Shown: in pieces, positions 7,775-20,394 of the stretch
Position numbering within the stretch: the first letter of the stretch is position 1
Layout: each line of letters opens with the position of its first letter
NCBI GenBank assembly: GCA_028823855.1
Contig: JAPPFL010000054.1
Location: 62,001-126,000, forward strand
Length of the DNA stretch: 64,000 nt
From: Albidovulum sp.
Lineage (GTDB): Bacteria; Pseudomonadota; Alphaproteobacteria; Rhodobacterales; Rhodobacteraceae
Reading direction: 5' to 3'
The notes under the pieces: model-generated
Databases searched by the model: none
The model's input: the letters and a program-made list of their open reading frames with translations, nothing else
What the model was told of the DNA's origin: nothing
Translations under genes and position numbers: made by a program

Positions 7775-9061
7775 GTGAATCAAGAGATCGATTCTCGGCT
7801 TAAGTCAAGGGCGGCGAATTTTGTCCAGTATCCGGAATCAAATTTCCATTCGCGCCGGGGAGTATGGGTGTCAGCCTATCGGATACAGCGCTTTTTTCCT
7901 GCGCCATTGCCGCCCGATCCTCCGGTAAATTCCGCCCGGAAGTTGCATATGCTTCTTTCCGAAGCCGACGCGGCAAAAGGCCGACTGGACGGTTCAATAC
8001 AGACGCTTCCGCATTAGCATTTGTTCGTATTGATGCTCGTCCGATAGGAAGCCGCGCTTTCAAGTCAAATCGAGGGCACTCGAAGTTCGCCACAGGATCT
8101 TTGCGCAGCCGAAGCCAGTATTTTTGCGCCGAATCAAGCCGGAGACGTGGACGAAGCGCTGCACAGCGTCAAAGCCGCGAAGCACGGGCCAAGAAAATTA
8201 TCTGAAATTCCAGTCTCCGCTCGACAGATGCGGGAAAACCATTCCGAGCTTCCTCAATGTAAGCGAGATTCCAATCTCGCGCCGGGAGAGCTGCGAACTC
8301 GCCAGAACTGGATTGGTCCGGCCGGGTGCGCACTGCATGAAGCGCCCTTGGTTTCGTCGCCATTTCAACAGGTCGCAAATGATATGCCGCTACCGGAGCG
8401 ATTGATTCACGCCGATTCGAAGTCGCCCTTACCGGTCAAAATCGGACCGGCCCAATTCCAGTCCGAAACCACTCGCCCCTTTCTGCACGGCGCCGTTCGC
8501 GTCGGGCCACTGCTCATCACGCTCTTGCAATGCGAGCAGGGCGCGTTGCAAAATCGGTTCTCTGCCCATCCCGGTATTTTAAGCAGAATAGGCGGCGGTA
8601 TAGCGAAGAATTGCAATCGGTTCGCGATGCCGGAACTTGGGAGCAGTGGCTCGCCTTATTCCCTGAAGGAATCGTGTCGGCAAGCGGACAGGCGGTCGAT
8701 ACGCGAGAAGAGTTCTCGTCCTTCGCAAAAAAATCGTCGCGTAGTCACGGGCAGCTTGGGGTATGCCGCCGCCAACGGCCATCGTTTGCCGGAGTACGTA
8801 TTTGTCCGTCCGATCATGCCGGTAATGGACGCGCAGCAGCTGGCAAAAACTTCTTTCGCAACGGCCAACGATCTGGTTGCGCGGATGGTCAAATTCGGAA
8901 TCTTACGCGAAATCGCCGGCCGATCCCGCAACCGGAGTTTCATTTACCAAGATTACGTCGGGCTATTTCATGATTCCCTGGCGTTGAATGACGAAGGATC
9001 TCCCGTTTCGAATCCCAAGAAATCCAAATTTCGCAGCGCGCTGGAATGCCGGACAAGGTAA
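7775..9061 (+). pseudogene. Fic-family AMPylase pseudogene (two amber stops, two frameshifts)
   Basis: Three pieces reconstruct a class II Fic protein. In one frame: FFPAPLPPDPP and LLSEADAAKGRLDGS, then TAG at 8015, FVLMLVR, TAG at 8045, EAALSSQIEGTRSS (the N-terminal inhibitory helix motif, 8060-8080), then GELRTRQNWIG. The catalytic HPFxDGNGRxGR loop is degraded to RPFLHGAVRVGP (8474-8509). Near 8550 the match shifts to another frame (SRYFKQNRRRYSEELQSVRD) and returns near an A7 run at 8727-8733, giving a winged-helix tail with ATANDLVARMVKFGILRE. Intact relatives are about 370-400 residues. The His and Asn of the active site are gone, so no AMPylation is expected. Partners are not visible. 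Confidence 0.85.
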
Positions 9062-9329: not shown

Positions 9330-11384
9330 CTACGCAGGTGATTTGCGGGCGCCGGAAATCCACGCCTTGTCGCGTTTGAAATCGAATTTGGATTCCCCTT
9401 CAATTATCGACCGGGCCGTTTGGTGGCCGGAATAGACGGCGGCCTGAATTATTCCGGGGACAAGACAGTCTCCCGCCAGATTTATTCGATCCGCGCCGAT
9501 CGCAGCTTCAATCTCCTGCCTCAGCCCATCGACCGGTATCCGGGCGCCGACAAATACCAGGTTCCGCGAACCTATTTCAGATATTTCGCCCGTTAGACAA
9601 TTCGTTAAAACCGAACTGCCGCCCAGTTTCAAATTCGGCCCGAGAGAGACGCCGGTCTCGTCCAGCCTTTCGATGATCCGCGATTGCTCGAGCGTGTTGT
9701 CGGTCCAGGTGGCGATTTGCGGCAACGGCGTAACATAGGAAACCCTTTGCCCGGCCCTCTGCAGCGCCTCGGCGATTGCGCTGGCGATATAGAAATGGTC
9801 ATCGTCGTAAACAATCGACTCCTCGAAAGCCATTTCTTCAATTCGGCCTTCCAGAATGTCGTCCGGAGTAAAGACTCGCCGCTCGCCAAAGTCGCGTTTT
9901 TGGAAATTCGTCGCGCCCACGCCGTCGCCGCGCCATTTCGCGCCGGTCGCGAGAACCACCGTGTCCGAACCGAAATCCGCGATATCCGAAGCCGCCATGG
10001 AACTGTGAAGGTACAAGTCCGCATCCGGGCTGCGCTCAATAAAGTGCAGCCGATAGTCCCGAACTCTCCGCCAGGTAGCCAAGCCGGGGAGGCGCGCCTC
10101 TTTCGCAACCCGGCCTCCGGGCTCGCTCGAGGAATCCGCGATCGTTACCTTCTCGCCGGCAGCGAGCAATACACGCGCGCATTCAAGTCCGGCAGGACCC
10201 GCGCCTATAACAAGGTGGGAACGTCGACGTTTCGAAATCAGAGGCATTTCGGGATGCCAGCTACGGCGCCATTCCTCGGAAACTGTCGGATTTTGCGTGC
10301 AACGAACCGGAAGGCCGTAGCTATCCATGCTCACGCAGATATTGCACCCGATGCATTCCCTGATTTCTTCGATTCTTCCTTCCTTTATCTTTTTCGGCAG
10401 GAACGGATCCGCGATCGAGGGCCGGGCGCCTCCAATAAGATCCAGCCGCCCATTTTTGACCAGCGAAGCCATGAAATCGGGAGAGGTAAATCGACCGACG
10501 CCGACTACGGGCTTCGTCGTAACCGACTTGACGAAATCGGTGAAAGGCAGCTGGAAACCTTCATCGGAAAACCTTGCGGTGGCGCTGTCGCTGGACCACC
10601 CGGCAATATTGACATCCCAAAGATCGGGAAGTTCGGACAGGGCCTCGACAACATCCCGGCCTTCGCCGCCGCTGGTCAGGCCCATCGGCTTTCCCGGCTC
10701 CGAAACGCTGAATCTCAGAGCGACCGCCCGCTCGCCTGCCGCTATTTCCAGCGTGTCTTCCAGAACTTCGCGAAGCAGCCTGATTCTGTTGTCGAAAGTG
10801 CCGCCGTACTGATCGGCTCGTTGGTTCGTATTCTTCGACAGGAAATGGCTGAGAATCGACAGATCGTGAGCCGCATATACATAAATTATGTCGTAACCCG
10901 CATCCTTGGCGCGTCGCGCGGCGGCTCGGTGCGATGCTCGGAACGCCCTGATTTCCGATAGGCCCATGCCGCGCGCCTGGCACGGAACCTCGGGCCTGAG
11001 CACGGGCAAATGGCTCGGGCCGGCAACCGGCAACCCGGTGGTCATGTTTCGGGCGCGCATACCCCCATGCGCCAGTTCGATCGCCGCTAGGCTGCCATGA
11101 GACTTAATCGCTTCGACCTGGACCGAATGGCGAACGATGTCGCCGTCGTCCCAGATGCGTTCCATAGGATGATTTGCCATATCGGAATCCGGCGCGATTT
11201 CCGTCATCTGCACGGCAACGGTTCCCCATCCTCCCTCCGCCTTGATTGCCCTAAGCGCAATGGCGCCGCTCGGTTGCGTCCAGCCGTGCCCCGTTGCGTG
11301 CGGAACTGCGTAGAAGCGGTTCGGAGCCGTCAGCGGGCCAAGCCCAATCGGCTCGAAAAGTATGGCATGACCGGGATCGGTCAT
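9330..11384 (-). CDS. Trimethylamine-dehydrogenase-like FMN/4Fe-4S/NAD-domain oxidoreductase (OYE family)
   Basis: A 684-residue protein with an Old Yellow Enzyme barrel (ILFEPIGLGPL..., QYGGTFDNRIRLLREVLEDT), a 4Fe-4S site CIGCNICVSM...RCTQN, and a C-terminal FAD/ADP-type domain starting at LVIGAGPAGLECARVL. Its whole length parallels trimethylamine dehydrogenase, including the VYxAH segment with the active-site Tyr and His and GGARPSIADPFLPKK. However, the position of TMADH Cys30 (6-S-cysteinyl FMN) is Ala in VPHATG, and Tyr60 is Met, so flavin is probably non-covalent and the substrate is not trimethylamine. Start ATG 11384 overlaps the preceding stop (ATGA), proving coupling to the UPF0261 gene. 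A catabolic demethylase or reductase role is inferred. Confidence 0.85.
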   Translation of the reverse strand: MTDPGHAILFEPIGLGPLTAPNRFYAVPHATGHGWTQPSGAIALRAIKAEGGWGTVAVQMTEIAPDSDMANHPMERIWDDGDIVRHSVQVEAIKSHGSLAAIELAHGGMRARNMTTGLPVAGPSHLPVLRPEVPCQARGMGLSEIRAFRASHRAAARRAKDAGYDIIYVYAAHDLSILSHFLSKNTNQRADQYGGTFDNRIRLLREVLEDTLEIAAGERAVALRFSVSEPGKPMGLTSGGEGRDVVEALSELPDLWDVNIAGWSSDSATARFSDEGFQLPFTDFVKSVTTKPVVGVGRFTSPDFMASLVKNGRLDLIGGARPSIADPFLPKKIKEGRIEEIRECIGCNICVSMDSYGLPVRCTQNPTVSEEWRRSWHPEMPLISKRRRSHLVIGAGPAGLECARVLLAAGEKVTIADSSSEPGGRVAKEARLPGLATWRRVRDYRLHFIERSPDADLYLHSSMAASDIADFGSDTVVLATGAKWRGDGVGATNFQKRDFGERRVFTPDDILEGRIEEMAFEESIVYDDDHFYIASAIAEALQRAGQRVSYVTPLPQIATWTDNTLEQSRIIERLDETGVSLGPNLKLGGSSVLTNCLTGEISEIGSRNLVFVGARIPVDGLRQEIEAAIGADRINLAGDCLVPGIIQAAVYSGHQTARSIIEGESKFDFKRDKAWISGARKSPA

Positions 11385-12622
11385 TCGACTCTCGTTGATA
11401 CGACACCTTCGGCTACCCAAGCATCGAAAATTTCAAGCGCGGCGTCCGCAAATCCCCGATCGTTAATGTGCGCGTCGATTTCAACCAACTCTGTTGGCGG
11501 CGCTATCGCCTTGCGGGCCTCGTCAAGGAACGCCTCCAAGCCTTCGGGATCATGGGCCGGTTCGCCCGGCTTGTCCCATTCTTCAATGCCGCGCAATGGA
11601 AGAATAACTTTGACGGGCCCCGACGATTCGGAGAGCCTCGCCGCCATCTCGCGCGCCGTTTCTCTCCGCTCTTCATTGTTTAAAGCCGAGCTCTTGATAA
11701 GGCGGTTGTGCGCATGAAACGGCCGGTCGGCGTATTGTTCCGGAATTTTCTGCCAGCCGGCAAAGTCTATAAGGTCAAGGCAACCGGGAGATACAAGCTG
11801 GGGAATTGCCGCGCGACCGGCATTCTTCAATCGATCCGCGCCCGCGTTGACGACGGAGCCCGCGAGCAGGTTGCCCAGTTCGGGAAGCGCGAAATCCATC
11901 GCGCAGCAAAATCCCCTCTGCGAAGCGATCTTCTCGAACGCCATTCCTCCCATGCCGGTGGCGTGAAAGATCGCGACCTCGAAGCCTCTTTTTTCAATTT
12001 CGGGCTTGAGGTGCTTCATATAGGATAGGCAGGACGAGCCAAGCGACGTCATTCCTACGATCGGTCGGGACCGAGTCGGCCTTTCCGCGGCCCTGGCGGC
12101 CCCGAGCACGGCGCCCGCGGCCTGGCTGAGAGAAGACTTGCAGACGGAATTGAGTCCGTAAAGGCCGCCCGCCCAAAGAATCATTTGCAGATCGGGGGAA
12201 AGTCGGTCCGCCGGAATAAGAGGCGAAAACGACACGGTCGAGACTATGAATTTAGGCGTTCCCAAGGGCAGCGCCTGGCAGACATCCAGCGCAAGATCGG
12301 TCCCCATCGTTCCGCCTAGAATAATCGCGCCGTCTATCTCGCCTTGGGCGTGCATCGCCGCGGCCAGCGAAGACGCGCCGCGCGCCATGATCTGCATGGC
12401 CGTATTCTCGTCGCCGCTCGCTATCGCGGATTCAATCGAACTTCCCGCCGCTTCGGCGACGCTATATTTTGAAACGTCGCAGTCATTTTCCGTTTCGCCG
12501 AGTACGCTGACATCCATCGTGATCGCGCCGCCGCCCTGAGCCGCAATCTGCTCCGCCATGTACGAAAGCTCCGGGGACTTCGTATCGTAAGTTCCAACCA
12601 CTAGTATTGTTCTATCTGCCAT
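11381..12622 (-). CDS. Tm-1-like ATP-binding / UPF0261 family protein
   Basis: A 413-residue protein matching the UPF0261/Tm-1-like family: VVGTYDTKSPELSYMAEQI at the start (the family GTxDTK motif), GAIILGGTMGTDLALDVCQALPLGTPK, FHATGMGGMAFEKI and a C-terminal VILPLRGIEEWDKPGEP block. Tm-1 in tomato binds ATP and a viral replication protein; bacterial members have no settled function and tend to occur with catabolic genes. Here it is locked between TctA (11-bp overlap upstream) and the TMADH-like gene (4-bp overlap downstream), which suggests it works on the imported substrate. Family call is strong; enzymatic role is unknown. Confidence 0.9.
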   Translation of the reverse strand: MADRTILVVGTYDTKSPELSYMAEQIAAQGGGAITMDVSVLGETENDCDVSKYSVAEAAGSSIESAIASGDENTAMQIMARGASSLAAAMHAQGEIDGAIILGGTMGTDLALDVCQALPLGTPKFIVSTVSFSPLIPADRLSPDLQMILWAGGLYGLNSVCKSSLSQAAGAVLGAARAAERPTRSRPIVGMTSLGSSCLSYMKHLKPEIEKRGFEVAIFHATGMGGMAFEKIASQRGFCCAMDFALPELGNLLAGSVVNAGADRLKNAGRAAIPQLVSPGCLDLIDFAGWQKIPEQYADRPFHAHNRLIKSSALNNEERRETAREMAARLSESSGPVKVILPLRGIEEWDKPGEPAHDPEGLEAFLDEARKAIAPPTELVEIDAHINDRGFADAALEIFDAWVAEGVVSTRVE

Positions 12623-14108
12623 GATGCGTGATTCCCTTGGTTTTTCGGCTGAGCCAGATTCCGCGAATGTGCGCGGCGACTACCAGAAGGATAATCAGGA
12701 AAAGAATGAACGCGATAGGTCTGCTGATGAAGTCCAGCGGCGTGTCGACCCTCATCATCGATGTCCGCAGCTTGATCTCCATGATGCCGCCCAGGACCAT
12801 TCCGAGAATTATCGGCACGATGGGAAGTGAAAGTCGCTTAAGAACGAATCCGAGAATTCCGAACCCGCCGGCGATTGCGCAGTCGATCGCGCTGTTGCGA
12901 AGCGAGTAAACCCCTACGAAGCTCAATGTTAAAATCGCTACGCCGAGAAACCGCGTCGGAATCTCGATCACGCGCAAGAGTTGATTGGTGGAAACCAGCA
13001 AAAACGCGATGACGAGTACATTGAGAATCAACAGCGCGATATACAGCGCGATTACAAAATCCATCTGGGTCTGGAATAGCTGCGGGCCGGGCACGACGCT
13101 ATGAACGTAGAATACGCTGAGCATCATGGCCGTCAGCGCCTCGCCCGGAATTCCCAGAGCCAATAGCGGGATCATCGCCGCGGCGGGCACCGCGTTGTTC
13201 GACGCCTCCGAAGCCACGAGCCCTTCAGGCGATCCGTTTCCAAATGTTTCCGGGCTCGAGGACGTTCTTTGGGCGTACGTATACGAAAGAAATTGAGCCG
13301 TGAATTCGCCGACGCCGGGAATCATGCCCATCACGACTCCGAAGCTCGACGAAACGGCGGCTACGCGCTTGTGTCGCAAGAGCTCTTTAAATCCGACGAA
13401 CAAGCCGCCGCTGATTCCCTCGGACTTGTTGGCCTTGTCCGGCTCAACTAGCAGCAGAAACGCCTGGCTTAGCGCGAACAGCCCGAGAACGACGACGATC
13501 AGGTCCACGCCGCCGGCAAGCCAGCTTTGCCCGAACGTATATCGCTGCGAATATTTGACGGGTTCGAGCCCGATCGTACCGATCCATATGCCGAAGCTAG
13601 CCGTCATTCCCGCGGCAAGCACTCGCCCCCTGTGTGCCAGAATTACGAGGATGATCCCGAGAAGAGCCGCCAGAAAAATTTCGCGGCTCCCGAACATCGG
13701 AGCGACTATTGCAAGAACCGGAGAGAGCGCGATAAGGCAAATGACCGAAAACACGCCGCCGCAGAAGGACGCGGAATACGCAAGCGAAAGCGCCCGCCTC
13801 GCTTCTCCTCGACGCGTCATCGGCGTGCCCTCGTAAGTGGTCAAGGCGTTTACGGCAGTACCCGGAACGTTGATAAGGATAGCCGGAATCGCGCCTCCGT
13901 ACATCGACGAACCGTAAATTCCCAGGAGAGCTGTCAAGCCCACGATCGGATCGAGCGAAAAAGTCGCGGGAAGAAGGATGGCTATTGCTACGGCAGGTCC
14001 GACCCCGGGTATCGCCCCGATAACAACGCCGCCGACAGACCCGACAAGGAGCGCGAGAACGACGTCCCAGCGGGCGAGGATAGCCAGAGATGAGAAAAGA
14101 ATTTCCAC
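12612..14108 (-). CDS. Tripartite tricarboxylate transporter, large permease TctA
   Basis: A 498-residue inner-membrane protein of the TctA family with about 12 hydrophobic segments. Family motifs are present: GVVIGAIPGVGPAVAIAILLPATF near residue 30, YGSSMYGGAIPAILINVPGTAVNA, and a second GMIPGVGEFTAQFLSY with EASNNAVPAAAMIPLLALGIPGEA. It is the main channel of a proton- or sodium-driven uptake system that takes carboxylates delivered by TctC. It sits 1 bp after TctB and overlaps the UPF0261 gene by 11 bp, in a five-gene minus-strand operon. Confidence 0.95.
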   Translation of the reverse strand: MEILFSSLAILARWDVVLALLVGSVGGVVIGAIPGVGPAVAIAILLPATFSLDPIVGLTALLGIYGSSMYGGAIPAILINVPGTAVNALTTYEGTPMTRRGEARRALSLAYSASFCGGVFSVICLIALSPVLAIVAPMFGSREIFLAALLGIILVILAHRGRVLAAGMTASFGIWIGTIGLEPVKYSQRYTFGQSWLAGGVDLIVVVLGLFALSQAFLLLVEPDKANKSEGISGGLFVGFKELLRHKRVAAVSSSFGVVMGMIPGVGEFTAQFLSYTYAQRTSSSPETFGNGSPEGLVASEASNNAVPAAAMIPLLALGIPGEALTAMMLSVFYVHSVVPGPQLFQTQMDFVIALYIALLILNVLVIAFLLVSTNQLLRVIEIPTRFLGVAILTLSFVGVYSLRNSAIDCAIAGGFGILGFVLKRLSLPIVPIILGMVLGGIMEIKLRTSMMRVDTPLDFISRPIAFILFLIILLVVAAHIRGIWLSRKTKGITHHGR

Positions 14109-14109
14109 G

Positions 14110-14652
14110 CTAGAAATTGACAGTCATGAAATTGCGCAGTCCTCCGGGCAGCGCGTCGTATATCGCCCCTCCGGGAATTTTCACCGACAGGAATGTCTTG
14201 AAAATCAAGACAACGCAGAAACCCGTGACGACCGCGCACGCAAGCGGCCGGACGGTGCGGTAGCCGACGCGCGCGGCGAGAGTCGCCGCGAAGGCAAGCG
14301 TGGCGACAAGGTAACCGATCAATGGCACGATCCATACGTAGGCCATGAACCAAAGGAGGAATTCGAACGCTTGAAGCCAGACGAAGGCTTCTTTCGCGCC
14401 GCCGTGCCGGCTGTTTCGCTGCGCAACAAGATGAAGCGCGCCGAACGATACCATGCCTATCACGCCCACGGCGGGCCAAAACGACGGCCTCGTAAATATC
14501 TGGCTTCCGGGCGACGGCTTCGTTTCGGCCCCAAGCTGCGAAAGTAGAAACGCCGAAAACGCAACGAATATCAACGCGAACGCAAGACCGCCTGCATGGG
14601 GCGATTCATCGAAAAAGGGGGCGTTCTTGCTCACGCGTTTCAGGCCTTCCAA
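14110..14652 (-). CDS. Tripartite tricarboxylate transporter, small permease TctB
   Basis: A 180-residue protein with four predicted membrane helices: GGLAFALIFVAFSAFLL, a PSFWPAVGVIGMVSFGALHL segment, a double hairpin FEFLLWFMAYVWIVPLIGYL, and the C-terminal CAVVTGFCVVLIFKTFL. This layout and length (140-180 residues) is typical of TctB, the small membrane partner of TctA. It lies 42 bp downstream of TctC and directly before TctA. Sequence of TctB is poorly conserved, so the call rests partly on position. Confidence 0.88.
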   Translation of the reverse strand: MEGLKRVSKNAPFFDESPHAGGLAFALIFVAFSAFLLSQLGAETKPSPGSQIFTRPSFWPAVGVIGMVSFGALHLVAQRNSRHGGAKEAFVWLQAFEFLLWFMAYVWIVPLIGYLVATLAFAATLAARVGYRTVRPLACAVVTGFCVVLIFKTFLSVKIPGGAIYDALPGGLRNFMTVNF

Positions 14653-14694: not shown

Positions 14695-15630
14695 CTATTC
14701 GAGTATGCTTGCGATGCTCGCCAGAGTCGCGATATCGGCCTCGATTTGCGCCTCCGATGCCTCGGCATCCATCCAATAGACCAGCGCTCCGGTATCTTCG
14801 GCAAGCTTTTGCGCTCGCTCCGACATTACGGTTTCCTTCGCCACCGCGATTATTTTTTCGCGCGCGTCTTCCGGCGTATCCTTGAGCACGAAAAGGCCGT
14901 TCCAAAGAGCGAGATTCAGCGACTCGTCAAGCTCGCCGAGCGTGGGCGTGTCCGGAATCAACGGAATTCGCTGATCCGTAATGGAAGCGAGGAACTGAAT
15001 GTCGTCCATGCACGGCAATACCAGCTGCAAGGTTGTGTTCACGACATCGGCATCGCCGGAAGCGAGGCTGTTGCAGTCCAGCATGTCGAAGGCCGCTTCC
15101 GATCCCCATTCGAATCCGGCGTTCTTCGCATATGCGAAGGAAGTCCTGGTCGGTGCGAGCGCCGCGCCGAAGTGGCCCAGCGCGACCTTGTTGGTCCTGG
15201 CGTATTCAGCGAGTTCCTGCATCGACGAGAAGGGAGCGTCCTTCGAAGCCGCGAGTACGAACGGATAGGTTAGAAAAATTCCGAGAGGATCGAATTTCGC
15301 GGGCTCGAGCTCCGCAATGCCGATCGAATGCCCAATCGTCGGAACGGCGATCACGAATGACCCGATCGTATAGCCGTCGGCCGGTGCGTTGGCCACGAAT
15401 ATGGCGCCGGGAAACGGTCCGCCGCCGCCGCCGGGCTTGTTTACGACGGCTGCCGCGACACCGTAGGTTTCCTGCAGATCTTCGGCAATCATTCTGGACA
15501 ACACGTCCTCCAGGTCTCCCGGGGGCCACGGCACGACGATGCTGATCGGTTTTTCAGGATAGTCCCCGTATGCTGCTCCGGCCACTGAAATTGCGATCGC
15601 GCTTGCAATCGCGGCAACTGATTTTTTCAT
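14695..15630 (-). CDS. Tripartite tricarboxylate transporter substrate-binding protein TctC (Bug family)
   Basis: A 311-residue periplasmic protein with a signal peptide (MKKSVAAIASAIAISVAGAA) and the Bug-family start YPEKPISIVVPWPPGD, followed by VVNKPGGGGGPFPGAIFVANAPADGYT and a C-terminal amphipathic end. It would bind a carboxylic acid and hand it to TctB/TctA. Many Bug proteins have G-G-x-x-D around the first helix; here the loop is WPPGDLED, slightly unusual, so ligand preference may differ. First gene of the minus operon TctC-TctB-TctA-UPF0261-flavoprotein. Confidence 0.93.
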   Translation of the reverse strand: MKKSVAAIASAIAISVAGAAYGDYPEKPISIVVPWPPGDLEDVLSRMIAEDLQETYGVAAAVVNKPGGGGGPFPGAIFVANAPADGYTIGSFVIAVPTIGHSIGIAELEPAKFDPLGIFLTYPFVLAASKDAPFSSMQELAEYARTNKVALGHFGAALAPTRTSFAYAKNAGFEWGSEAAFDMLDCNSLASGDADVVNTTLQLVLPCMDDIQFLASITDQRIPLIPDTPTLGELDESLNLALWNGLFVLKDTPEDAREKIIAVAKETVMSERAQKLAEDTGALVYWMDAEASEAQIEADIATLASIASILE

Positions 15631-16188: not shown

Positions 16189-17262
16189 TCAAGAATGTTC
16201 CTTTGGTAAAAGGCTTCGACAAATCGGAAGTTCTCGGTCGAGCGGCAAGGTTACGACCTGCCGGGTACGCGCTGCCTGGTATATTGAGCTGGCAAGTTCA
16301 ATCGACCGTACGCCGTCTTCAGCCGTTGCCGGCGCCGCGCCGCGGCCGTCCAGATGTGCTCCGAGCGCTTTGAACAGCCCCGCATAGCCGCCTTCAACCT
16401 TTCCGACGCCTTCAACCGCGCGGTCTATCGCTTTTTGGTTCTTGCGGCTTCGGGCGGTGAAACGCCAGCCCCATTGGCCGGGTTCATATGCGGACGTACC
16501 GCTTTCCGCAGTCGCGTGCTCGAACACAATCCTTAGGCGCGACATATTTCCAGCGGACCCGAGTGTTACCGAGCTGGTGAGAAGCGCGCCGTCGTCGGCC
16601 GCAAGGCAGACCGCGGCGCAGTCATCCGTTTCAATCGGGTTGACCCGGGTGCCGAGCATCGCCGCAACCTGTTTTACAGGGCCCACGATCTCGGTCGCCA
16701 GATCGTGGATGTGGACCGCATGCCCCAGCACGGCGCCGCCCAGTTCGCTCCTCCAGCGCCCTCGCCAGGGATTCGCGTAATAGTCATTCGACCTGTCCCA
16801 GTGAGTTTCAAGTGTACCTGCCAGCGGCCTGCCCAAAAGACCGTCTTCCTTAAGGCGAATGAGTGCGGCAAATCCGGCTCCGTACCGGTATTGGAATACC
16901 GGTACGAATAGCCGGTCGCTTTTCGTCGCCGCAGCCGCGACGCGCTCGGCGTCGGAAACGCTTCCGGCAACGGGTTTCTCGCAGATCACGTGTTTTCCGG
17001 CTTCAAGAGCGTTCAATGAAACCGGAACGTGGAGAGCTGGCGGCAGGCAGATGTCGACAATGTCGACATCCGCAGCATCAAGCGCTTCGCCAATTTCGGA
17101 GACGACGCGCGGATGACCTGCTTCGGAGGCGAGCGCTTTGGCTGCCGCCGCATCGGAATCGCAGATGCATGTAACTTCGAATCGATCATCGAGCGCCCGA
17201 TAGCCCGCCAAGTGCCTGGCGCCGACCCCGGAACCGAGAATTGCAACTCGGTGCCGCATCAA
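16189..17262 (-). CDS. Gfo/Idh/MocA-family oxidoreductase (1 of 3 in this operon)
   Basis: A 357-residue NAD(P)-dependent dehydrogenase. The Rossmann motif VAILGSGVGARHLAGY is at the start, the catalytic lysine motif is CEKPVA at about residue 96, and the C-terminal domain has GGAVLGHAVHIHDLATEIVG with the His/Asp of the substrate pocket. Such enzymes oxidise hydroxyls of sugars, inositols or sugar acids in the cytoplasm. It starts 1 bp after the stop of the preceding homologue, and is the last gene of the MalK-plus-three-dehydrogenases operon. Substrate unknown. Confidence 0.9.
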   Translation of the reverse strand: MMRHRVAILGSGVGARHLAGYRALDDRFEVTCICDSDAAAAKALASEAGHPRVVSEIGEALDAADVDIVDICLPPALHVPVSLNALEAGKHVICEKPVAGSVSDAERVAAAATKSDRLFVPVFQYRYGAGFAALIRLKEDGLLGRPLAGTLETHWDRSNDYYANPWRGRWRSELGGAVLGHAVHIHDLATEIVGPVKQVAAMLGTRVNPIETDDCAAVCLAADDGALLTSSVTLGSAGNMSRLRIVFEHATAESGTSAYEPGQWGWRFTARSRKNQKAIDRAVEGVGKVEGGYAGLFKALGAHLDGRGAAPATAEDGVRSIELASSIYQAARTRQVVTLPLDRELPICRSLLPKEHS

Positions 17263-17263
17263 C

Positions 17264-18277
17264 CTATTCGAGATTCCCGAGGCGTATGGCTTTCGCTTGC
17301 GCGATCAATGCAAGTTCCGTCACTTGGAAACAGTGCTCCTGCGCCATCGCGGTTTCGGTTCTGTTTACAACATCATAGGCAAGGTTTCGAAAATACGGTA
17401 GGTCGCATCCGCTGGCATCGATATGCTCGCACCGGGTGTCGTTAACCAGGAATATGTGGTCCTTGCCCGGCCGGCCGCTTATATCAACGTATTTTCGCAG
17501 TTCGATGTATCCTTCGGTGCCAAGGATGGTCAGTCGTCCGTCGCCCCAAGTCGGGAGCGCATCGGGCGTATACCAATCGACGCGAATATAGCCCTGGCCG
17601 CTGTCGCCGCGAAGCAGGACTTCGCCGAAATCCTGCAAGCCCGGTTCATCCGGGTTAGCGAAATTTCCGACGACGGCGGACACTATCCGTACTTCCGACG
17701 ATCCCGTGAAATGGAGGAACTGGTCGATTTGGTGCGACGCGATGTCGCACAAGATACCGCCGTACTGGTCTTCCTGGAAGAACCAGGGCGGTCGAGTCGC
17801 GCGATTTAGGCGGTGCGGGCCGAAACCGGCGGTCTGAACTACATTCCCGATCGCACCGTCGCGCACTAGCTCGAAGGCTTTCGTCACCGCGGGCACTTCG
17901 AATCTTTCCGAAAAGTCGACCGACCATATGCGGCCGGTTTCGGCGACAGTCGCGCGCAGGTCTTCGAGCTGTCCTAGCGTAGTGCATCCCGGCTTGTCCG
18001 TCATCACGTCCTTGCCCGCGCGCATTGCTTCGATGGCCCGGCAGGCGCGTCGAGCGGGAATGTCCGCTATGAGAATGAGGTCGACCTCGGGGTCTTCCAA
18101 AAGATCCCGCCGGTCGTGAACTCGCGGAACGCCGGGAAACCGTTTGCGGAGTCCCGCTACCTGGCGGGGGTCGCCTTCGGTCCACCACCCCTTGCAGGCG
18201 CAACCGGCCTCGAGCATTCCGGCAAGCTGGCCGTATATGTGTCGATGATCGACTCCTATGATGCCTATTCCCAGCAT
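17264..18277 (-). CDS. Gfo/Idh/MocA-family oxidoreductase (2 of 3), DKP variant
   Basis: A 337-residue member of the family. It starts LGIGIIGVDHRHIYGQLAG, a Rossmann loop in which the usual GxGxxG is altered to GVDHRH. The catalytic motif reads TDKPGCTT rather than EKPxA, retaining Lys. The C-terminal part has GGILCDIASHQIDQFLHFTG and an IRVDWYTPDALPTWGDGR loop seen in a sub-branch of these proteins. The altered cofactor loop suggests it may bind NAD(P) differently or act on a different step from its neighbours. 9 bp downstream of the next homologue. Confidence 0.85.
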   Translation of the reverse strand: MLGIGIIGVDHRHIYGQLAGMLEAGCACKGWWTEGDPRQVAGLRKRFPGVPRVHDRRDLLEDPEVDLILIADIPARRACRAIEAMRAGKDVMTDKPGCTTLGQLEDLRATVAETGRIWSVDFSERFEVPAVTKAFELVRDGAIGNVVQTAGFGPHRLNRATRPPWFFQEDQYGGILCDIASHQIDQFLHFTGSSEVRIVSAVVGNFANPDEPGLQDFGEVLLRGDSGQGYIRVDWYTPDALPTWGDGRLTILGTEGYIELRKYVDISGRPGKDHIFLVNDTRCEHIDASGCDLPYFRNLAYDVVNRTETAMAQEHCFQVTELALIAQAKAIRLGNLE

Positions 18278-18286
18278 GCGCGGTCC

Positions 18287-19321
18287 TCAATCCATCTCGG
18301 GCAGAGCTACTCTGCAGCCCTGCGCGGATGAACGGATCATCGCGGCAATCAGGCGCTGAACGGCGATCGAGTCGCTTCCCGAAATCTCCGGGGCTTCGCC
18401 GGCGCCGACTCGATCGACGAATGATTCAATCAGGTCGCGATGCCAATCGAACGGAAATGCCATCGGGTCGGCGCCGGCGCCTGTTTCTGCTTCGGAACCA
18501 AACGTCTCCGTGCCGCCGGAGCGCCAGCGAACGGTCAGAACGCCGGCTTTCAGCAGCACGCCGGCCTTGTCGCATTCAAGGGCTATGGATTCCGCTTCTC
18601 CCGGAAAAGTCGCTGTCGTCGCCACTACGGAGCCCACGGCGCCATTGGCGAATTTGAGGCCGGCGCAAGCGAAATCCTCCGATTCCATCCTGTGAAAGGC
18701 GGTGGTCGCCGCCACGGCCTGCACCTCCTGCACGGGTCCAGCGAAACTGAGCATCAAGTCGAGCGTGTGGATGGCTTGGCTGATCAGGACTCCGCCGCCG
18801 TCCCGGGCAATAGTGCCGCGTCCCGGCTCGTCGTAGTAGGCCTGGTCCCGCCACCAGGGAACTTCGACCCGCGCAACCCGAACGTCTCCAAGAACGCCGT
18901 CGGCTAGTAGCGCCCTAAGTTGGCGCGATGCGGCCCGGAACCGGTGCTGAAACACGATTCCGAGCTCGACTCCGTTGAACCGGCAGGTCGCCGCTAGTTC
19001 CTCGGCGGCCGTAACGGTTCGCTCTAGGGGCTTTTCGCAAAGGATGTGCTTGCCGTTGGCTGCAAACAGATTGATCAGGTCCGCTCTCGCATTCGGGGGA
19101 GTGATTATTATCGCCGCGTCGACCGACGGGTCTTCCGCAAGCGCCTCCACGCATCCGGCCGCGGGAAGCCCGAATTCTGACGCAAACCTATCCCGCCGTT
19201 CCGCCGTGCGCGAATACACGCCGATAACCCCGGCCTTTTCGGAAAGCGCCTGCAATGCTCGAGCGTGCGGCGGAGCCGCCATTCCGGTTCCGACAACAGC
19301 AAATCCGAATCGTCCGTTCAT
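18287..19321 (-). CDS. Gfo/Idh/MocA-family oxidoreductase (3 of 3)
   Basis: A 344-residue dehydrogenase with FAVVGTGMAAPPHARAL as cofactor loop, CEKPLERTVTAAEEL as catalytic-lysine region and GGGVLISQAIHTLDLMLSFAG in the substrate domain. Its ATG overlaps the stop of the upstream MalK-type gene by 4 bp, so it is translationally coupled to the transporter ATPase. This ties the three dehydrogenases to the sugar imported by the adjacent divergent ABC system. Confidence 0.92.
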   Translation of the reverse strand: MNGRFGFAVVGTGMAAPPHARALQALSEKAGVIGVYSRTAERRDRFASEFGLPAAGCVEALAEDPSVDAAIIITPPNARADLINLFAANGKHILCEKPLERTVTAAEELAATCRFNGVELGIVFQHRFRAASRQLRALLADGVLGDVRVARVEVPWWRDQAYYDEPGRGTIARDGGGVLISQAIHTLDLMLSFAGPVQEVQAVAATTAFHRMESEDFACAGLKFANGAVGSVVATTATFPGEAESIALECDKAGVLLKAGVLTVRWRSGGTETFGSEAETGAGADPMAFPFDWHRDLIESFVDRVGAGEAPEISGSDSIAVQRLIAAMIRSSAQGCRVALPEMD

Positions 19322-20394
19322 GCGGGCAGTCCGTTGACAATCGCCTGCCCCTGGGCATCAAACAGATGCAGTTTGCTTCGGTCGATCGACAAATTCAGAG
19401 ATTCGCCTTCTTCAACCGGAAGCTGGCCGATCTGATGCACGGTGAGCTGCGGCAGTCCGTCGGCGGAACAGTAAATATAGGTTTCGCCGCCCAGCTGCTC
19501 AAACGAGTCGATAGTGACTGCGATATCGGCCTTTTCCGAACCGGTTATCCCGATGTGTTCGGGACGAATTCCCAGGGTTACTTGCCGATCAGCCTCCAGA
19601 CCGCCGACTCCGTTGACGCCAATCGAACCGGCTCGGGTTACCAACGTACCGTCCTCAACGCGGGCATCAAGCAAATTCATGCGCGGAGAGCCAATAAAGC
19701 CGGCGACAAACATGTTCGTTGGCCGATTGTAAAGTTCGAGCGGCCGACCCACCTGCTCCACGATGCCGCCCTGGATAACGACAATTCTGTCTGCCAGCGT
19801 CATCGCCTCCGTTTGGTCGTGCGTGACGTAGATCATCGTCCCGCCGATTTTCTTGTAAAGCGACGAGAGTTCCTTGCGCATGGTTACGCGCAGCTCGGCA
19901 TCCAGATTCGACAGCGGTTCGTCGAAAAGGAAAGCCTTAGGATCGCGCACGATCGCTCGTCCGATGGCGACGCGCTGGCGCTGCCCGCCGGACAGCGCTT
20001 TCGGCTTGCGCTGTAGGTACGGCGTAATCTGCAGCATCTCCGCCGCGTCCCGGACGAGCCCGTCGATTTCGGCACGCGAAAGTTTCGCGTTCTCCAGGCC
20101 GAACGCCATGTTTTTGTAGACCGTCATGTGCGGGTAGAGCGCATAGGACTGAAATACCATCGCCAGCCCGCGCTCTGACGCGCTAACATCGTTGACGGTC
20201 TCACCGTCGATCAGAACCTCGCCGCTGGTAACTTCCTCAAGGCCCGCGATTATCCTCAGCAGCGTCGACTTGCCGCATCCCGACGGGCCGACAAAAACGA
20301 CAAACTCGCCGCTGTCAATGTGCAGATCGATGCCATGGATTACTTCGACATCGCCGTAGACTTTGCGGACATTCCTTAATATGATTTCCGTCAT
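19318..20394 (-). CDS. MalK/UgpC-type sugar ABC transporter ATP-binding protein
   Basis: A 358-residue ATPase: Walker A GPSGCGKST, Q-loop FQSYALYPHM, signature LSGGQRQRVAIGRA, Walker B AFLFDEPLSNLD, then a C-terminal regulatory TOBE/OB domain (residues about 240-358) typical of CUT1 sugar importers. It lies on the strand opposite to the binding protein and two permeases at 21.6-25.1 kb, which lack their own ATPase, so it is almost certainly their motor. The 130-bp divergent gap at 20395-20524 would hold both promoters. Confidence 0.93.
   Translation of the reverse strand: MTEIILRNVRKVYGDVEVIHGIDLHIDSGEFVVFVGPSGCGKSTLLRIIAGLEEVTSGEVLIDGETVNDVSASERGLAMVFQSYALYPHMTVYKNMAFGLENAKLSRAEIDGLVRDAAEMLQITPYLQRKPKALSGGQRQRVAIGRAIVRDPKAFLFDEPLSNLDAELRVTMRKELSSLYKKIGGTMIYVTHDQTEAMTLADRIVVIQGGIVEQVGRPLELYNRPTNMFVAGFIGSPRMNLLDARVEDGTLVTRAGSIGVNGVGGLEADRQVTLGIRPEHIGITGSEKADIAVTIDSFEQLGGETYIYCSADGLPQLTVHQIGQLPVEEGESLNLSIDRSKLHLFDAQGQAIVNGLPA

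Follow-up and report, generated by a model that had tools for sequence, protein, structure and literature searches.

The main finding of this work is a five-gene operon in a 64,000-nucleotide stretch of the genome of Albidovulum sp. (contig JAPPFL010000054.1, positions 62,001 to 126,000 of the forward strand; hereafter the window), in which the genes of a tripartite tricarboxylate transporter (Tct) are followed by a gene of the UPF0261 family and by a gene for an iron-sulfur flavoprotein that resembles trimethylamine dehydrogenase (TMADH). We propose, with a probability of about 0.55, that this operon serves to import an N-methylated amino-carboxylate and then to deaminate or demethylate it oxidatively, a reading that is founded on the operon itself, its conservation among relatives, a residue signature of the flavoprotein, the family membership of the gene products and the partner genes of related loci. 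The substrate class would be that of small carboxylates bearing an N-alkylated, probably N-methylated, amine. The assembly is conserved and consists of known enzyme kinds; apparently, neither the assembly nor the clade of Ala30 flavoproteins linked to UPF0261 has been described in the literature searched.

As shown in Table 1, the five genes are transcribed from the minus strand in the order TctC, TctB, TctA, UPF0261 and flavoprotein. Their products exceed the Pfam cut-offs for Oxidored_FMN, for the N- and C-terminal UPF0261 domains and for TctA, TctB and TctC, the last three matches identifying a Tct transporter encoded within one operon. Read directly from the sequence, the TctA stop and the UPF0261 ATG overlap by 11 bp (12612-12622) and the UPF0261 stop and the flavoprotein ATG by 4 bp (ATGA, 11381-11384), with intergenic gaps of 1 bp between TctA and TctB and 42 bp between TctB and TctC. 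An earlier note on this DNA had given the same two overlaps, with TctB and TctC just upstream. The listed open reading frame (ORF) of the flavoprotein begins further upstream, at a TTG (11420), whereas starting at the ATG at 11384 yields a gap-free alignment with TMADH.

Table 1. Genes of the operon in the window, in order of transcription.
Gene	Position	Strand	Product	Basis
TctC	14695..15630	(-)	Solute-binding protein of the Tct transporter, periplasmic; encoded by the first gene transcribed	Pfam TctC 8.2e-17
TctB	14110..14652	(-)	Small membrane subunit	Pfam TctB 2.3e-12
TctA	12612..14108	(-)	Large permease	Pfam TctA 1.8e-124
UPF0261	11381..12622	(-)	UPF0261 protein (Tm-1-like, NF002676 type)	Pfam UPF0261 5.1e-44, UPF0261_C 6.5e-64
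Flavoprotein	9330..11384	(-)	TMADH/histamine-dehydrogenase/Pno-like FMN and 4Fe-4S amine dehydrogenase, Ala30/Met60 type	Pfam, phmmer, residue table, clade, model

The flavoprotein belongs to the TMADH family, with an Oxidored_FMN TIM barrel, 4Fe-4S cysteines and a pyridine-nucleotide-reductase-like domain in that order (Pfam PF00724, PF07992). In a phmmer search against solved structures it matched 3K30 (4.4e-181), 6L6J (9.8e-175) and 1DJN (1.8e-132), while its predicted structure was closest to 6L6J, followed by histamine dehydrogenase and TMADH, including the C30A mutant 1DJQ, which folds (3K30 and 2TMD were among the matches). When aligned to TMADH (1DJN), with which it shares the fold and 36% identity, it carries Ala in place of Cys30, Met in place of Tyr60, Leu in place of Tyr174 and Asp in place of Trp355, whereas Tyr169, His172, Asp267, Trp264 and the Fe-S cysteines Cys345, Cys348, Cys351 and Cys364 are retained, as they are in all 33 of the UPF0261-linked enzymes. 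The alignment thus bears out the Ala30, Met60, gap-free start, 4Fe-4S cysteines and active-site Tyr/His of the earlier note; of the aromatic bowl, Tyr60 and also Trp355 are replaced and Trp264 is kept.

The enzyme cannot be classed as TMADH proper, since Cys30 is replaced by Ala in 33/33 linked enzymes and a bowl that keeps Trp264 has Met, Ile, Leu or Val at position 60 and Asp or Glu at position 355. Histamine dehydrogenase (3K30, 6DE6; 43-46% identity) shares the active-site Tyr/His, the Trp264 equivalent, the absence of Tyr60 and the Asp at the place of Trp355, the latter found in 31 of the 33 linked enzymes with Glu in the remaining 2, but it differs by its Cys30, which forms the cysteinyl-FMN bond, and by its Gln60. 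The best structural match belongs to Pno/HisD, represented by the 6-hydroxypseudooxynicotine (6-HPON) amine oxidase of Pseudomonas geniculata (6L6J) and known from nicotine degradation, which is 44% identical over the full length and has the same domains, the 4Fe-4S cysteines and, in the family alignment, Ala30; it differs at position 60, with Glu in 6L6J. According to a review, the flavin mononucleotide (FMN) of 6L6J is not covalently bound, and Agrobacterium Pno, 82% identical to 6L6J, uses electron-transfer flavoprotein (ETF) as acceptor and yields methylamine and a semialdehyde from a secondary methylamine (PMC7688666). By analogy, it is very probable that the window flavoprotein lacks the cysteinyl-FMN bond, as had been anticipated. 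Because 6L6J is a secondary-amine dehydrogenase with Ala30, the loss of Cys30 predicts a non-covalent FMN and not the loss of amine oxidation; likewise, two of the three bowl residues are lost, but histamine dehydrogenase, which is without the same two (Tyr60 and Trp355), still oxidizes an amine, so that a loss of amine chemistry is not supported. For these reasons we abandon the conclusion, drawn earlier from the loss of Cys30 and Tyr60, that the substrate is not an amine. Genes for ETF were found in the window genome, and from the sequence we infer that the flavoprotein oxidizes an amine with ETF as acceptor.

The residues at positions 30 and 60 also define a lineage. Ala30 and an aliphatic residue (Met, Ile, Leu or Val) at position 60 are each present in 33/33 UPF0261-linked flavoproteins, whereas among 40 different relatives without the link, sampled in the same order and class, 39 have Cys30, one has Ala30, and all 40 have Glu, Tyr or Gln at position 60; a Fisher test on these counts ignores kinship and is not independent evidence. 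The sounder statement is that the linked enzymes lie on one side of a fully supported branch and form a single clade (SH-aLRT 100), seen exclusively with this type of UPF0261 in the sampled genomes. The linked type is rare in the order of the window genome: in a search of 391 genomes with the flavoprotein, a close match was obtained, besides the window genome, only in G325 (63%). Other members of the family were encountered as well. The window genome has a second full-length TMADH-family enzyme (G000 C18, locus L041, 8001-10079) with Cys30 and Gln60, the histamine-dehydrogenase type, near an ABC ATPase gene, and several Rhodobacterales loci (L045, L046, L047, L049 and L054; also L050, L051 and L053) hold two or three TMADH-family genes in tandem, of the Cys30/Glu60 and Cys30/Tyr60/Tyr264/Glu267 types, with ABC transporter genes near several of them.

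The gene set recurs well beyond the window. An alignment of UPF0261 run against approximately 85,000 species genomes gave 336 relatives, of which the best 80 were retained with their surroundings; since contig ends cut many loci, counts among these 80 are minima and are valid for the nearest relatives only. A TMADH-like gene lies directly downstream of UPF0261 on the same strand in 31 of the 80 loci, TctA lies within 9.5 kb of UPF0261 in 31, and a gene for an FAD/GcvT enzyme similar to dimethylglycine dehydrogenase (DMGDH) lies directly upstream in 16. The TctA orthologues adjoining many UPF0261 genes are 68-92% identical, and a start giving the 4-bp overlap is available in 18 of 33 loci. The hosts comprise Rhodobacteraceae, Rhizobiaceae, SAR116 and other Alphaproteobacteria, together with Granulosicoccaceae and Thiotrichaceae (Gammaproteobacteria). 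Among cultured hosts, Phaeobacter sp. J2-8 and Ruegeria sp. HKCCD8929 have the set, and others have a part of it: UPF0261 with the flavoprotein in Mesorhizobium sp. M8A, and UPF0261 with Tct in Neptunicoccus sediminis and Leucothrix pacifica. Across the tree of UPF0261, the TMADH neighbour was gained or lost 17 times, no fewer than 11 of these events being forced by well-supported branches, and these repeated changes indicate that the association is recurrent and not one inherited block. The neighbourhood survey shows that UPF0261 does not keep this company only here, as the set is widespread (31/80 loci, two classes) and the adjacency is more than chance, and this recurrence supports the earlier proposal of a coupled, apparently undescribed catabolic set; our literature search found no description of UPF0261 with this gene set. 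It could be argued that the flavoprotein and UPF0261 share only regulation with TctABC and act on different molecules, given that TctABC occurs with other partner sets and that this type of UPF0261 is found, too, in places with neither Tct nor TMADH, none of nine tallied partner families being present in 18 of the 80 loci (the neighbours sampled from such loci were mixed and had no common theme). We consider this very improbable, since coupled translation and adjacency are seen repeatedly across two classes, with the tree changes noted above, and the Ala30/aliphatic-60 clade keeps to this UPF0261 type in the sampled genomes.

That the operon acts on an N-methylated amino-carboxylate is suggested by the partner genes of the relatives. 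The FAD/GcvT enzyme of these loci has human DMGDH as its best match (9.2e-126) and shares with dimethylglycine dehydrogenase (5L46, 4P9S) the FAD (DAO) plus GcvT architecture, the TWHAAG motif and the folate-domain Asp; it belongs to related loci only, and the window operon lacks it. Within the same order, the nearest relative (L040; flavoprotein 61-63% and UPF0261 72% identical) shows the operon again, interrupted between TctA and UPF0261 by three genes, which encode an aldehyde dehydrogenase, a class III pyridoxal-phosphate (PLP) enzyme and an APH-family kinase. The best solved matches of this PLP enzyme are the phospho-lyase 5G4I and human ethanolamine-phosphate phospho-lyase (6TOR), and a set of kinase, phospho-lyase and aldehyde dehydrogenase would fit the removal of the amine from an amino alcohol. 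The aldehyde dehydrogenase of the loci is BADH/PuuC-like, and other loci carry a class III transaminase closest to omega-transaminases, an IclR regulator and a metallo-beta-lactamase-fold protein. In L072, L082 and L088, a TauD-family protein with weak similarity to gamma-butyrobetaine dioxygenase (3.9e-08) and a glutathione-dependent formaldehyde-activating enzyme are encoded ahead of UPF0261. Taken by their sequences, the N-demethylation and deamination genes point to an amine-containing substrate. The TctC orthologues of 30 UPF0261 loci have in common the motif PWPPGDxEDVLTRM and further pocket-like blocks, a conservation that points to a shared ligand; the Asp of this motif, where three paralogues of the window genome have Gly (a weak point, as these are the three in which the canonical motif is readable), would be compatible with a cationic group.

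A more specific form of this proposal is that a methylated beta-hydroxy or omega-amino acid, such as carnitine, norcarnitine, 4-amino-3-hydroxybutyrate (GABOB), gamma-butyrobetaine or N-methylated hydroxylysine, is degraded by stepwise N-demethylation, by phosphorylation and a phospho-lyase (or a transaminase) to a semialdehyde, and then by aldehyde dehydrogenase. An APH kinase and a phospho-lyase, mostly with aldehyde dehydrogenase and/or transaminase, are indeed located between TctA and UPF0261 or adjoining them in L040, L076, L077, L090 and L106, and the TauD-like and formaldehyde-activating enzymes and the TctC Asp, suited to a cationic ligand group, would agree with it. Nevertheless, no enzyme for the initial demethylation of a quaternary amine was recognized in the loci, the likeness to gamma-butyrobetaine dioxygenase is weak and several other amino alcohols fit equally, so we hold this form to be doubtful. 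Degradation of homarine was also considered on account of the marine hosts and the N-methyl chemistry, and was set aside, the kinase and phospho-lyase genes having no obvious fit. In Tateyamaria (L089 and L092), downstream of a UPF0261 gene of this type there is a gene of CoA-transferase family III and, in L089, an FAD monooxygenase gene, with ABC transporter genes and a gene of the endonuclease/exonuclease/phosphatase family on the upstream side.

The UPF0261 protein has the N- and C-terminal domains and the fold of its family and passes NCBIfam NF002676 with 602.7 bits against a cut-off of 556. Its AlphaFold model (pLDDT 89.7) matches Saro_1862 (9MPY, with acetovanillone) and tomato Tm-1 (3WRW) with Z of 32.7-38.4; the three share the two-domain fold and the motifs DTK, FHxxGxGG, HxHN and HxND at 26-29% identity, which suggests that the active site is retained. 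Lower structural matches (Z of about 9-12: PurE, DHAD, LarB, epimerases) concerned mostly the N-terminal domain alone and were set aside. A TIM barrel at the C-terminus is described for Tm-1, and in the window genome two other UPF0261 genes adjoin a PF09370 TIM barrel gene and one adjoins a class II aldolase gene. By tblastn, PF09370 was not found in any of the 80 loci, although the same search detects it beside the two paralogues; the flavoprotein, itself a TIM barrel, occupies the neighbouring place that PF09370 holds elsewhere. No settled biochemical role of UPF0261 (Tm-1 fold) was described in the literature searched. By analogy, the ATP-dependent activation put forward in the earlier note is plausible, its ATP use and reaction being only weakly indicated, and we tentatively suggest, as a possibility on the unlikely side, that UPF0261 is an ATP-dependent activator (e.g., a kinase) of the imported N-methylated amino-carboxylate or of its deamination product, coupled to a dedicated amine dehydrogenase with non-covalent FMN that stands in the place of PF09370. 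We also observed a 720-residue ORF in the window genome (G000 C76, locus L042, 8907-11069) in which a LivF/UrtE-like ABC ATPase (residues ~10-235) precedes UPF0261 (314-710); it is possibly a fusion and adjoins other ABC genes of the urea/branched-chain type and a PF09370 gene.

These comparisons also bear on a nitrogen-free carboxylate or aryl-ketone route, in line with the carboxylate of the earlier note, in which UPF0261 would activate (e.g., phosphorylate) an aromatic or keto-acid after its uptake, with the flavoprotein as an ene-reductase or a C-C dehydrogenase. Saro_1862 was crystallized with acetovanillone; Novosphingobium aromaticivorans begins acetovanillone catabolism with the single-component kinase MarK (PMC13101465), which might conceivably be Saro_1862; TIM barrels of the Old Yellow Enzyme type are also found in 2-naphthoyl-CoA and dienoyl-CoA reductases; and there is the paralogue beside a class II aldolase. 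However, Tyr169, His172 and Asp267, the triad of the amine dehydrogenases, do not vary, nor does Trp264, amine dehydrogenases rank far above ene-reductases both by sequence and by fold, and the partner genes are those of an N-demethylase, a phospho-lyase and a transaminase. We therefore judge such a route unlikely.

According to the proposed amine route, TctABC would import a small N-alkylated amino-carboxylate, and the flavoprotein, with its non-covalent FMN, 4Fe-4S cluster and ADP domain, would oxidize a C-N bond to an imine and pass the electrons to ETF. The imine would be hydrolyzed to an aldehyde and (methyl)amine, or to a demethylated amine and formaldehyde, and UPF0261 would be a small-molecule enzyme of the same pathway, its use of ATP being a weaker suggestion. 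In the relatives the route may go on with folate-linked demethylation by the DMGDH-like enzyme, transamination or the combined action of kinase and phospho-lyase, and finally aldehyde dehydrogenase.

Several points weigh against this proposal. The evidence for an amine route consists of sequence, predicted structure and gene context, and the partner genes were labelled by homology. The window operon itself is without demethylase, deaminase or aldehyde dehydrogenase genes, which come from the relatives. The loci with none of the tallied partners mean that UPF0261 is not tied to this pathway, and the sole solved small-molecule complex of a UPF0261 protein that we encountered holds an aryl ketone without an amine. 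In addition, a transaminase orthologue of the window genome (PRK07481, 65% identical to that of a UPF0261 cluster; G000 C7:190511-194791, locus L163) shares a compact operon with HpaE, HpaD and a 127-residue ORF, and this hpaD/hpaE-type operon hints at an aromatic amine that would feed the homoprotocatechuate pathway. Candidate partners elsewhere in the window genome are this transaminase, several DMGDH-like genes and a 994-residue PRK06148-type protein that resembles phospho-lyases in its C-terminal portion.

Regarding the surroundings of the operon, three Gfo/Idh/MocA-family dehydrogenase genes and a UgpC/MalK-like ABC ATPase gene lie on the same strand upstream of TctC (16189-20394) and probably form a separate sugar or polyol operon. 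On the other side, a plus-strand ORF of 304 residues (8147-9061), with no Pfam or NCBIfam match, lies between the flavoprotein gene and a gene for an enolase-superfamily dehydratase.

The operon ties one branch of UPF0261 to an importer and an amine dehydrogenase, which provides a testable substrate class and several cultured hosts, and the Ala30 signature is a marker of a clade of amine dehydrogenases predicted to be without covalent flavin. If UPF0261 is an ATP-dependent activator, one branch of the family that includes the plant virus-resistance protein Tm-1 would gain a physiological role. Dozens of bacteria from the sea and from soil have the set next to genes for demethylases, transaminases and aldehyde oxidation, which suggests that methylated amino acids are used in a manner not yet described; if the substrate is an abundant one among these, nitrogen and one-carbon cycling by marine Alpha- and Gammaproteobacteria would include this further route.

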